A DNA stretch of 64,000 bases, taken from assembly GCA_002722055.1 (NCBI GenBank), contig PBKD01000014.1:80533-144532 (forward strand). The letters run 5' to 3'. Position 1 is the first letter of the stretch. Every line of letters begins with the position of its first letter. The DNA comes from Rhodospirillaceae bacterium (GTDB lineage Bacteria > Pseudomonadota > Alphaproteobacteria > SHVP01). Below the pieces are notes generated by a model. The model made no database searches. It was not told the DNA's origin and saw only the letters and a program-made list of their open reading frames with translations. This document shows positions 59,611 through 64,000 of the stretch, one piece after another. The position numbers and the translations under genes are program-made.

Positions 59611-59754
59611 ACTCATAAAATCAAAATTATTGATAGAATCTATAGGCTATATGATATGCAGAACAAATACCCTAAGGCTTATTTTGCGATCCTTAGAAAA
59701 TCTTTTGAAACATGCCCCCAGTGACATCTTGGGAAATATGGAAATAAATTATGA
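59611..59754 (+). pseudogene. short coding remnant ahead of the Dam-like methylase
   Basis: One frame from 59611 encodes THKIKIIDRIYRLYDMQNKY and PKAYFAILRKSFETCPQ, is stopped by TGA at 59722-59724, then continues HLGKYGNKL to a TGA at 59752. The residue mix and block order look like genuine protein rather than random AT-rich sequence, but there is no recognised family, no good start with a ribosome site, and an in-frame stop. It may be the decayed end of a gene lost near the methylase. A competing 62-codon frame from 59570 looks less protein-like. Confidence 0.3.
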
Positions 59755-60683
59755 GTAAACCAATTCTAAAATGGGCAGGCGGTAAAACTCAGCTCATTAA
59801 CCAAATAGAAAAATTCTTACCCGAAGAAATAAAAAATAGAAAACTAAAAAAATATGCTGAACCTTTTATTGGTGGTGGGGCACTATTTTTTTATCTTCAA
59901 GATAAATATAAAATTGATGAAACATATATAAGTGACACAAATAAAGACTTAATACTTCTCTATAAAACAGTTAAAGAGAATTTAAATGAACTATTAAAAC
60001 AACTATTAATTATATCAAATAAATATCATGCAATTACTATTGAAGAAAACAGGAAAGAATACTTTTATAAAATTCGTGAACTTTATAATGAAGGTATAAC
60101 TGAATCTTCTTATCAAAATTTGACAAAGGAAAGTATCTTTAGAGCAGCCCAGCTAATTTTTCTAAATAGAACAAGTTTTAATGGCTTATATCGAGTAAAC
60201 AGCATGGGCTTATTTAATGTTCCTTTTGGAAAATATAAAAATCCAGGTATTTATAATGAGAAGGGTTTAAAAGAAGCGTCAAAATTACTTAAAAATACGA
60301 TTATTGAATGCTCAAGTTATCAAAACTTGCCTAAAGAGTTTCTTTCTAATTCATTAATATATTTTGATCCCCCTTATCGCCCATTATCGAATACATCAAG
60401 TTTTACTGCTTACAATAAGTCTAATTTTAATGATATCAGTCAAATTGAACTTGCAAATTATTATAAAAAAATATCAAAAAATAAAAATCTATATTTAATT
60501 TTAAGTAACTCAGATCCAAAGAATAGCGACAAAAACGACAAGTTCTTTGATGAATTGTATAATCAATTTATCATTAGCAGAGTAAGTGCAACTAGAATAA
60601 TTAATAGTAAGTCTGAAGGACGAGGAAAAATAACTGAAATATTAGTAACAAACAAAGAATTTAAAAAAGTTTTAAAGAGATGA
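59751..60683 (+). CDS. Dam-like DNA N6-adenine methyltransferase (probably GATC)
   Basis: A 310-residue alpha-class amino methyltransferase of the Dam/DpnIIA group. Motif X is LKWAGGKTQLINQI, motif I is YAEPFIGGGALFFYL, and motif IV is IYFDPPYRPLSNTSSFTAY. The stretch NRTSFNGLYRVNSMGLFNVPFGKYKNP closely follows the Dam/DpnIIA pattern, so methylation of adenine in GATC is the likely activity. Alphaproteobacteria use CcrM (GANTC) as their core methylase, so this one is accessory: an orphan or the survivor of a DpnII-type system. No intact endonuclease follows; only a broken frame overlaps its stop. Confidence 0.92.
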   Translation: MSKPILKWAGGKTQLINQIEKFLPEEIKNRKLKKYAEPFIGGGALFFYLQDKYKIDETYISDTNKDLILLYKTVKENLNELLKQLLIISNKYHAITIEENRKEYFYKIRELYNEGITESSYQNLTKESIFRAAQLIFLNRTSFNGLYRVNSMGLFNVPFGKYKNPGIYNEKGLKEASKLLKNTIIECSSYQNLPKEFLSNSLIYFDPPYRPLSNTSSFTAYNKSNFNDISQIELANYYKKISKNKNLYLILSNSDPKNSDKNDKFFDELYNQFIISRVSATRIINSKSEGRGKITEILVTNKEFKKVLKR

Positions 60684-60789
60684 CAAAAAAACAAAAGAAC
60701 CCTCACTACGAAATAATAAAAGGTACAAGTCTAATTCTTATGTTTTAAAAAATGTAATTAAAATTTCAGATAAAAACTCTCATAATTAA
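60680..60789 (+). pseudogene. frame-broken remnant downstream of the Dam-like methylase
   Basis: An ATG at 60680 overlaps the methylase TGA as ATGA, the usual coupling of a second gene. It encodes MTKKQKNPHYEIIKG before running into TLILMF-type residues and a stop near 60749. A second frame across the same bases reads RYKSNSYVLKNVIKISDKNSHN and stops at 60787. Joined by one frameshift near 60725 they give a coherent basic N-terminus of about 37 residues. I read this as the start of a lost gene, plausibly the partner endonuclease, but no family match is claimed. Confidence 0.35.
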
Positions 60790-60844
60790 GTAAAATGTTT
60801 TTATTTACTAAATTTGAATTAAACATTAAATATGGTAAAAAAAT

Positions 60845-61849
60845 ATGATGAATAATAAAATTTTTACAGTTGGTGGATTGTTCTCAGGCGTTGGAGGTAT
60901 AGAGCTAGGTTTTTCAAATAAAAAAAAATTCAAGATTGCCTGGGGAACAGATTTTGATATTTACGCTTCAAAAACTTACAGAAAAAACTTTACCCACCCT
61001 TTTTATGAAAAAAATATAAATAAACTTAGAGGAAAAGATTTAGAAGCAGTTGATGTGCTTGTAGGTGGTTTTCCTTGCCAGGCATTTTCTGTTGCAGGTT
61101 ATCAAAAAGGGTTTGAAGACGAAAGGGGCGATGTTTTTTTTCAAATTATAAGATTAATAAACGAGTTACCAAAAAAACCTAAAGTTTTATTACTTGAAAA
61201 TGTTAAAAATATTTATACTCATGATAAGAAAAAAACATTTAGAATTATCCAAGACAGTTTGGAAAAAACTGGATATTGTGTTTTTTCTAAAATAATGAAT
61301 ACTTGCGAATATACTTGTGTTCCTCAAAATAGGGAAAGAACTTTTATTGTTTGTTTTCTTGAAGGTAAACATGCTTTTTTAGATCCATCAAAACCAAAAT
61401 CAACCTATTTTCAAAAAGTTTTTCCTCCTGAAAAAATAATTAAACTTAAACCTATACAATATTTTTTAGAAAACGCTGAAGTTGATGAAAAATATTATTA
61501 TAGACAAGATAAATACAATTATAGAGAATTATCACAATCTGTAACTAAAAAAAATACTTTTTATCAATGGAGAAGAGTATATGTTAGAGAAAATAAAAGT
61601 GGTTTATGTCCTACTTTAACAGCAAACATGGGTGCAGGTGGTCATAATGTTCCCTTAATAAAAGACGACTTTGGTATAAGAAAAATTACACCTAGAGAAT
61701 GTTTTAATCTCCAAGGATTTCCAAAGAATTTTAAGCTACCAAAAGATGTTCCAAACACACAATTGTATAAACAAGCGGGCAATTCAGTAACAGTAGATAT
61801 GTTTAAAAAATTTGCAGATATAATATACAATACTTTACTTAAAAATTAA
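60845..61849 (+). CDS. DNA C5-cytosine methyltransferase (M.HhaI-like architecture)
   Basis: A 334-residue 5-methylcytosine methylase with all main motifs in normal order: I TVGGLFSGVGGIELGF, IV VGGFPCQAFSVAGYQKGFEDERG with the catalytic Cys, VI LLLENVKN, VIII VPQNRERTFIV, a target-recognition region (about 190-265), then IX-X ITPRECFNLQGFPKNF and QAGNSVTVDM. The target sequence cannot be read from the protein. Two ATG codons are adjacent at the start (60845 and 60848). Its TAA shares the palindrome TTAA with the stop of the converging glycosylase. Confidence 0.93.
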   Translation: MMNNKIFTVGGLFSGVGGIELGFSNKKKFKIAWGTDFDIYASKTYRKNFTHPFYEKNINKLRGKDLEAVDVLVGGFPCQAFSVAGYQKGFEDERGDVFFQIIRLINELPKKPKVLLLENVKNIYTHDKKKTFRIIQDSLEKTGYCVFSKIMNTCEYTCVPQNRERTFIVCFLEGKHAFLDPSKPKSTYFQKVFPPEKIIKLKPIQYFLENAEVDEKYYYRQDKYNYRELSQSVTKKNTFYQWRRVYVRENKSGLCPTLTANMGAGGHNVPLIKDDFGIRKITPRECFNLQGFPKNFKLPKDVPNTQLYKQAGNSVTVDMFKKFADIIYNTLLKN

Positions 61850-62460
61850 TTTTTAAGTGCAATCATTCCATTATCAACCCACTTCCAAATATAGATCGCA
61901 AGGATACTTCTGTAAGGTTTTGCCCATTTAACTTGAGAAAAATCTTTATCTAATTTCTTATTAAAGATTTTCTGATATCCTTTTTTAAGAGTGGAATCCC
62001 CTTCAGGAAAAATATCTAATCTTCCCATATAAAATAATAGAATAATATTTGAAGACCAAGGACCAAATCCATTTAATTTTTGAATTTCATTTTTTGCATC
62101 TTGATCATTCAATTTTTTCCAATAATAAAAAATTTTTGTATTATTTTTTACTTTTATTGCTAAGTTTTTCATAAAGTTTATTTTAGTATAAGAGATTCCA
62201 ATTTTTCTTAAATCTTCGACATTAGTTTTTAAGATGCAATCTGGACTAATTATTTTGGAGGAGGAAAACATTTTTTTCAATCTTGAAAAAATTACATTAG
62301 CAACCTTGTTTGATAGTTGTTGATTTATAATTATCTTAATTAAAGACTCATAATTTAAACGGCGTACATTTAAACTAACTGGACCAAGTTGTTCAACCAG
62401 TAATTTGAATTTACTATTTTTTTCAAGAAACTTAATCGCATCCGAAATATCAACAAACAT
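61846..62460 (-). CDS. AlkA-like HhH-GPD DNA glycosylase
   Basis: A roughly 204-residue base-excision enzyme. The helix-hairpin-helix is IQKLNGFGPWSSNIILLFYMG, followed by FPEGDSTLKKGY with the catalytic Asp; IIINQQLSNKVANVIFSRL matches the AlkA/3-methyladenine glycosylase II substrate-domain start. There is only one Cys, so no [4Fe-4S] cluster of the MutY/Nth type. The family removes alkylated purines, and some members excise 1-methyladenine and 3-methylcytosine. I place the start at ATG 62460; a TTG at 62472 adds four residues. The gene lies between two C5-methylase genes, which may matter for its role. Confidence 0.88.
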   Translation of the reverse strand: MFVDISDAIKFLEKNSKFKLLVEQLGPVSLNVRRLNYESLIKIIINQQLSNKVANVIFSRLKKMFSSSKIISPDCILKTNVEDLRKIGISYTKINFMKNLAIKVKNNTKIFYYWKKLNDQDAKNEIQKLNGFGPWSSNIILLFYMGRLDIFPEGDSTLKKGYQKIFNKKLDKDFSQVKWAKPYRSILAIYIWKWVDNGMIALKN

Positions 62461-62465
62461 TAATA

Positions 62466-62687
62466 TTACCAATCATCAATATTACCTTTTTTTAAAATTT
62501 TCGGTTTTAAAGGATCTAAAATTTTATCTGGAATTGAAAACCTTGGTCTTTTACCCTGAAATTGTAAATCTTGGATTTTGTTCTGCAAGGAGGTTGTTAA
62601 ACCTCTTGGAAACTTCATAGAAAAGATAATTTGAATACTCTCCATCCGAAAAGTATTGTCCAATCTGACCTACTCCACAGTTACCAT
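62466..62687 (-). pseudogene. two-frame coding remnant after the second C5-methylase
   Basis: From the overlapping ATG at 62687, one frame gives MVTVE and stops. The frame beside it reads VGQIGQYFSDGEYSNYL, FYEVSKRFNNLLAEQNPRF and TISG before TAA at 62551. A third then gives GKRPRFSIPDKILDPLKPKI and LKKGNIDDW, ending at 62466. Each segment looks like real protein and they abut in order, but neither of the latter two has a good start, so at least two frameshifts are implied. The position after a methylase suggests a decayed endonuclease or accessory gene. The simplest intact reading is a 59-residue ORF from ATG 62645, which is less convincing. Confidence 0.45.
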
Positions 62688-64000
62688 CTTTTCCAAATCT
62701 GTAGGTTGATTAAATAAAGGAAAATCATCAGATTCAATTTCAGTATTGGATTCAATTGATTCATATTTCACATTAGCGAATGTCTTTAAAATTGCCTCTA
62801 AAATGTATCTAACACCATCCACAGGAACTGCCATTCCTATTTGTCTTCTCACACTTTCTTTTGAACCATGAAAAATGAAATCATCAGGGAAGGTTTGTAA
62901 TCTAGCACGTTCTCTGTTAGTGAGTGCTCTATTCTCAATCCAGTGATATACGTGAGTTCCACCTCCTCCACTTCCAGTAATAGTATATGCTGGTTTCTCC
63001 GGGTCTAATCTTTTATAAATCATAGATAATTTCGCACCTTTAACATTTAGTTTTAAGTTTTCAGGCAAATCTGCGGTCCAAGCATTTTCACCTGGTTTTA
63101 TATGTTTTAAACGTTCAACAACATTAGTACTTTGTTTTGTAAATTCGTGATTTGCACAATCGCTTTTAATAGGTGGTTCAGTAATAGCATCCTTACAATT
63201 TTTGAATCTATTCAATATTGGTGGTTTTGGAATCTTGAATTTCAATTTTAAATCTTTTCTTATTCCAACAATTATATATCTATGCCTTGTCTGAGGAATT
63301 CCGTATTCTTCAAATTTGTAAAGATGCGTTGTGAGTTCGTAACCATGTCTACCTGCATGCTTCAATTCATCAAGTATTTTTTTAAAAGCACCACCAGAAT
63401 TTGCACTAGATATTCCAGACACATTTTCTGCAAAAATAAATTTAGGGTTATTTTTGTTAATGTACTTTACACCATAAGAATATAAAGGACCATAATTACC
63501 ATCTAAACCTTTTGTTTCTCCAACGCTACTAAAATCATTACATGGAAAACCATATAAAAAACCGTCTACGTATGGTAATTTATTAACTAAATTCTCACTT
63601 ATATCATCGCATATAACTTTAAAATCTTTATTCCTTTTATTGGAAATATTAGTTTGAAAAGTCATACAAGTATCTTGGTGGTTATCAGTCGCCCAAACGT
63701 GCTCAAAACAGTATTTTTTTCCTTTTACTATTAACTTAGATTTTTTAGCAGCTAACGCAATTCCACCAGGACCACAATACATTTCGCCAATAGTAAATTG
63801 ATTAACTTTTGGTTTCTTTTCTATGGTTGGAAAGACATAAGGTTCTCTATTTAAAATTTCATTCTCATATTTTTCTAAAAACAAAGTCATTAAATCTCTT
63901 AATTTCTCAGATGGTTTGACGCCTAATTGTTGACATGCTAATTTGAAATCTGCAGAAAGGTCATTGGGAAGACGGAATTGAAATTTAGAGTTGCTTTCTT
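62670..64000 (-). CDS. DNA C5-cytosine methyltransferase with N-terminal ribbon-helix-helix-like segment (runs off right edge)
   Basis: The catalytic part has motif I GEMYCGPGGIALAA, motif IV FLYGFPCNDFSSVGE (P-C-N-D in place of the usual P-C-Q), motif VI FAENVSG, motif VIII GIPQTRHRYIIVG, and motifs IX-X ARLQTFPDDF and RQIGMAVPV. The first internal ATG, at 63890, is not the likely start: the same frame is open to the window edge and encodes SKFQFRLPNDLSADFKLACQ, QLGVKPSEKLRDLMTLFLEKYE, which has the strand-helix-turn-helix pattern of a ribbon-helix-helix DNA-binding domain. The gene is therefore partial here. A broken frame follows its stop. Confidence 0.88.
   Translation of the reverse strand, partial: ESNSKFQFRLPNDLSADFKLACQQLGVKPSEKLRDLMTLFLEKYENEILNREPYVFPTIEKKPKVNQFTIGEMYCGPGGIALAAKKSKLIVKGKKYCFEHVWATDNHQDTCMTFQTNISNKRNKDFKVICDDISENLVNKLPYVDGFLYGFPCNDFSSVGETKGLDGNYGPLYSYGVKYINKNNPKFIFAENVSGISSANSGGAFKKILDELKHAGRHGYELTTHLYKFEEYGIPQTRHRYIIVGIRKDLKLKFKIPKPPILNRFKNCKDAITEPPIKSDCANHEFTKQSTNVVERLKHIKPGENAWTADLPENLKLNVKGAKLSMIYKRLDPEKPAYTITGSGGGGTHVYHWIENRALTNRERARLQTFPDDFIFHGSKESVRRQIGMAVPVDGVRYILEAILKTFANVKYESIESNTEIESDDFPLFNQPTDLEKMVTVE

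Follow-up and report, generated by a model that had tools for sequence, protein, structure and literature searches.

A C5-cytosine methyltransferase gene on the reverse strand runs off the end of the window, which is the whole 64,000-nucleotide stretch of DNA analysed here, and the residues ahead of its catalytic core had been read by eye, in an earlier note, as a ribbon-helix-helix (RHH) domain serving self-regulation or site targeting. The locus thus raises the question of whether this head is a genuine domain and, if so, what it does for the methylase.

The methylase gene and its N-terminal head

In the open reading frame listing, the frame 62670-63998 (-) is open up to the window edge. The earlier note had proposed looking past position 64000 for the true start, and would have taken an ordinary start there, with no RHH match, as evidence against its reading; the parent contig does place the start at an ordinary ATG (G000:C14:144539) 7 nt further on, but RHH matches are present. 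The complete RHH-headed methylase counts 445 aa and has the N terminus MDKESNSKFQFRLPNDLSADFKLACQQLGVKPSEKLRDLMTLFLEKYE; no good match to a Shine-Dalgarno sequence was found before its ATG. The features of the locus are as follows.

62670..64000 (complete, G000:C14:143202-144539), reverse strand: C5-cytosine methyltransferase gene with an RHH head (Pfam DNA_methylase, E 9.9e-69)
63990..64000 in the window (whole, L002:6523-6554; 28-bp core, G000:C14:144524-144551), reverse strand: 32-bp dyad GTTGC-TATAA-TTGT-ATGG-ACAA-AGAAA-GCAAC, putative operator (alignment of six starts)
63864..63986, reverse strand: predicted ribbon-helix-helix domain, residues 8-48, with strand, helix A, G-V-KPSE turn and helix B (profile, family and fold matches)
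63798..63863, reverse strand: variable linker from head to core, about residues 49-70 (poorly conserved alignment columns)
62784..63797, reverse strand: C5-methyltransferase core, about residues 71-408 (Pfam; nearest PDB relatives M.HaeIII and M.HhaI)
63534..63545, reverse strand: motif IV, PCND (present in 80/80 relatives)

The core is that of a C5-methylase, matching TIGR00675 as well as Pfam and carrying both the PC catalytic motif IV and the ENV motif. PCND and ENV are invariant in the alignment. The PCND reading of motif IV, which had been taken as unusual compared to PCQ, is real in the sequence; being universal in this methylase family, it is the subfamily norm and no anomaly, and we discarded it as an oddity.

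The N-terminal extension is encoded at five further loci; 13 residues of the head are invariant, synonymous codon changes occur at the conserved residues F11, R12, P14 and L17, and for this reason we regard it, on the aligned sequences, as a real translated domain. Searched alone, the first 60 residues gave weak but consistent matches to RelB and, less so, to NikR, and the ribosomal protein eS17 scored about as weakly; eS17 was absent once a profile of six heads was used, which retrieved RelB in the PDB (E 0.0048), followed by NikR and Mnt. Furthermore, Pfam RelB was matched by five of the six fusion heads (best E 0.0021), with other matches to ParG, Arc and RHH_1 and, for individual heads, to Arc/CopG phage families, all these single-sequence family scores falling below the curated cut-offs. 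The AlphaFold model of the head presents an extended stretch followed by two confident helices (mean pLDDT 85), as a single chain, the strand being one that pairs only in a dimer. The Foldseek matches listed for it are overwhelmingly RHH proteins (CopASO, ParG, PutA, Arc and CopG), with E-values that are modest, each above 0.2, given so short a domain. The full-length model of the methylase (mean pLDDT 48) was too poor for use.

Both the profile similarity of an RHH (MetJ/Arc) domain and, in the predicted model, its strand-helix-helix fold were therefore found, and we take the RHH identity of residues 1-50 as established by sequence and predicted fold. The by-eye call is borne out by the profile search and the predicted fold, and the head residues lie outside the methylase core, whose Pfam match begins at about residue 71. 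A search of the same class for free-standing proteins closely related to the head gave only weak matches. By analogy with its family, the head would dimerise and bind DNA through its strand.

Distribution of the fusion and its neighbouring genes

A scan of 84,980 species genomes yielded five further proteins matching from residue 1, which brings the fusions to six sequences only, some of them closely related: those of the window genome, two other alphaproteobacteria, one gammaproteobacterium (Porticoccaceae) and two Prochlorococcus. Among relatives of the fusion hosts, the fusion occurs in 1/10, 1/300, 1/32, 1/346 and 1/112 genomes, each time as the already known member. The fusion is thus rare and scattered, with one genome per set of host relatives, which suggests horizontal movement. 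The earlier note had proposed looking for the fusion in other marine alphaproteobacteria; the fusion is not confined to that group, as the Prochlorococcus and gammaproteobacterial members show. In plasmid and phage searches, the best matches listed start at or near the core and none spans the head, and a search of viral contigs with the full alignment returned one distant core and no head.

In the tree, the six RHH-headed members form one clade (95/83), whose sister is a headless Pelagibacterales protein, and 70 of the 80 relatives have fewer than 25 residues ahead of the core. Two Lentisphaerota relatives (L054:5755-7101 and L062:5713-7071) carry instead a VanU-like head of the Cro/C1 type (HTH_26). 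They thus share with the window protein the methylase family and an added DNA-binding head, and differ from it in the type of head, in their separate branch and in the absence of the start-codon dyad described below. Since that branch is distant from the RHH clade, the HTH_26 head is apparently an independent gain, and DNA-binding heads appear, from these sequences, to have been gained at least twice in the family. Apparent heads in L025, L032, L037, L075 and L080 were rejected as tblastn overrun across stops, the genes starting at the core.

The next gene in the window genome, divergent and 59 bp away, encodes an NgoFVII-type restriction endonuclease with PLD and B3-like domains (PF09565, E 3e-16; PF20731, E 1.1e-15; PDB relative 4rct). 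The nuclease is of the same type, and also divergent, in L005 and L006. In L007 it is convergent, and a gene for a Vsr mismatch endonuclease (L007:2160-2582) lies divergent to the methylase gene, sharing with it the dyad-bearing intergenic region. In L008 and L009 a PD-(D/E)XK-type protein (sub-threshold Pfam match) stands beside the methylase. L005 and L009 are sisters, yet they have different nucleases. It follows from this variation that the head and the putative operator travel with the methylase.

Other features of the surroundings were also recorded. The restriction-modification (R-M) pair adjoins glmS at its 3' end, both in the window genome (L002:7980-9803) and at the two Prochlorococcus loci (L005:2806-4719 and L009:3126-5021); this end of glmS is known as a preferred insertion site of Tn7-type elements. 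In the window genome a 110-aa serine-recombinase fragment (L002:7655-7987, Pfam Recombinase) lies between glmS and the nuclease gene. The end of the methylase gene (62670-62715, GTAACTGTGGAGTAG) and that of glmS (L002:7980-8025, GTAACTGTTGAGTGA) are identical at 30/46 positions on the same strand, against a background that reaches 28/46; this likeness could reflect a repeat that flanks the unit as an attachment site, a suggestion that is unproven. Adjoining the methylase, at 59751-62472, a DNA-modification gene cluster encodes an adenine methylase of the Dam type, an HhH-GPD DNA glycosylase and another C5-methylase, which has PCQ and no head.

A conserved dyad over the start codon

In all six fusions, and at the same place, a perfect dyad TGC-N6-TGT-ATGG-ACA-N6-GCA is centred on the start codon, with 12/12 defined bases present, whereas none of the 74 relatives outside the RHH clade has it, their best match near the start being 9/12. 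Exact matches counted across 753 kb of locus sequence, the window's own locus included, amount to a single copy, and the 2.16-Mb genome of the window has one other. The mean palindrome score is highest at the start codon, at 10.5 of 16 (background 4.7, SD 1.0). While the defined bases are invariant across the six, the spacer bases vary, the non-coding upstream ones included. In L007 the outer box is changed symmetrically (GATGC...GCATC for GTTGC...GCAAC), and in L008 and L005 it is retained in its inner part only.

The coding half of the dyad requires GAC for D2 and AGC for S5. Of 206 residues invariant in all six members, only 24 keep a single codon throughout, and D2 and S5 alone use a C-ending codon in all six, C-ending codons such as these being a rare minority in these AT-rich genes. 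The conserved dyad fits an autorepressor operator, which we propose as putative.

No second full operator was found in the start region of the nuclease gene. An operator-first search of viral contigs gave seven exact matches, none at a methylase or RHH gene, which is about the number expected by chance. As for the promoter, a consensus scan found none for the methylase gene; a possible -35 element (TTGACA or TTGAAA) occurs at -34/-35 in five of the six fusions, with an odd spacing to an uncertain -10. From the position of this element, transcription probably starts within the dyad.

Proposed self-regulation, its alternatives and its relation to known systems

What is observed at this locus is an RHH-type domain, a conserved operator-like dyad, a divergent nuclease gene and six fusions in one clade. 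We consider it quite likely that the protein serves an NgoFVII-like type II R-M system as modification enzyme and, through its RHH head at the start-codon dyad, also acts as its own repressor; that heads pair, that they bind the dyad, that they repress the gene and that they affect the nuclease in any way is conjectured from comparable systems. The head (residues 1-50, followed to about residue 70 by a variable and probably flexible linker) would pair with a second head, and the paired heads would bind the two-fold symmetric TGC-N6-TGT-N4-ACA-N6-GCA over the probable transcription start and the methylase start codon. Soon after entry the operator would be unoccupied and methylase would be produced; as it builds up, the operator would fill and the methylase promoter would be shut off. 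Where the nuclease gene is divergent, this may also, as in Ecl18kI, leave the nuclease promoter with less competition.

The other function that had been put forward for the head, namely steering the methylase to particular chromosomal sites or tightening its grip on DNA, with self-regulation secondary or absent, is compatible with the DNA-binding nature of RHH domains and with a fully intact core. However, in each of the six fusions the dyad coincides exactly with the start of the methylase gene itself, the genome holds just the one copy elsewhere, and most relatives of the methylase are headless; site targeting, left without support, appears improbable to us, and between the two roles the conserved start-codon dyad favours self-regulation. 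It is possible to suppose, with similarly little probability, that the palindrome acts as RNA, as an mRNA hairpin at the start codon limiting translation, and that the head has another role. Four of the five 32-mers tested can indeed form a fold whose loop contains the AUG (-5.5 to -8.7 kcal/mol), but L005 adopts a different fold, three of the five have weak z-scores, and the boxes are short and parted by variable 6-nt spacers, as in a DNA operator; moreover, since transcription probably starts inside the dyad, its 5' arm may go untranscribed. The hairpin is therefore a weaker explanation than autorepression. The head could finally be an element for dimerisation or folding only, without a DNA role, the conservation at the start reflecting shared ancestry. 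The six sequences are indeed related and RHH domains also dimerise, but the non-coding spacers have diverged where the boxes have not, and the scarcity of fixed codons, with the two C-ending ones both in the dyad, makes this the least probable of the three.

Autorepression by a methylase has precedents. In M.Ecl18kI, it has been determined experimentally that a helix-turn-helix (HTH) head binds an inverted repeat and blocks the methylase's own promoter, thereby freeing the nuclease promoter (PMC3695355), and M.SsoII likewise has an N-terminal HTH head, carried on a flexible linker (PMC3978073). The window locus shares with these systems an N-terminal head, about 70 residues long together with its linker, on a C5-methylase core, an inverted repeat at the methylase promoter and a divergent nuclease gene (PMC3695355, PMC3978073, PMC3874152). 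Different from them, its head is RHH instead of HTH, and its dyad lies across the start codon, so that one half falls within coding sequence, whereas the intergenic promoter region holds the Ecl18kI site, a 15-mer inverted repeat with a GGACAA...TTGTCC core. Grouped with M.SsoII and M.Ecl18kI as regulatory C5-methyltransferases are M.EcoRII, M.ScrFIA, M.MspI and M1.LlaJI. The inverted repeat at the methylase start is present in 6/6 fusions, but the head being RHH and not HTH, the window methylase would work like an SsoII-type regulatory methylase without being a member of that type. With the NgoFVII type II R-M system the window locus has in common the adjacent nuclease with NgoFVII PLD and B3-like domains; different from that system, most methylase relatives are headless and some RHH members stand beside a PD-(D/E)XK-type protein.

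Among protein families, the head best matches RelB/DinJ and other RHH antitoxins; these antidotes bind inverted repeats and thereby repress the operons that encode them (PMC3874152). At the window locus the antidote would be a DNA-protecting methylase, in RelB/DinJ-type systems it is a toxin-binding protein. Reviews describe regulatory methylases fused to HTH heads only (PMC3874152, PMC12707154), and we found no description of an RHH-methylase fusion in the open-access literature, which is not all literature.

An RHH version of the regulatory methylases would show that another kind of DNA-binding domain can equip an antidote for self-repression, and would directly tie R-M control to toxin-antitoxin control. 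On a reading whose chances we hold to be evenly balanced, an antitoxin-type RHH repressor, a methylase and a start-codon operator would form a self-contained control unit, mobile with its own regulation, which could therefore move to other nucleases and other hosts and still keep its control of timing.
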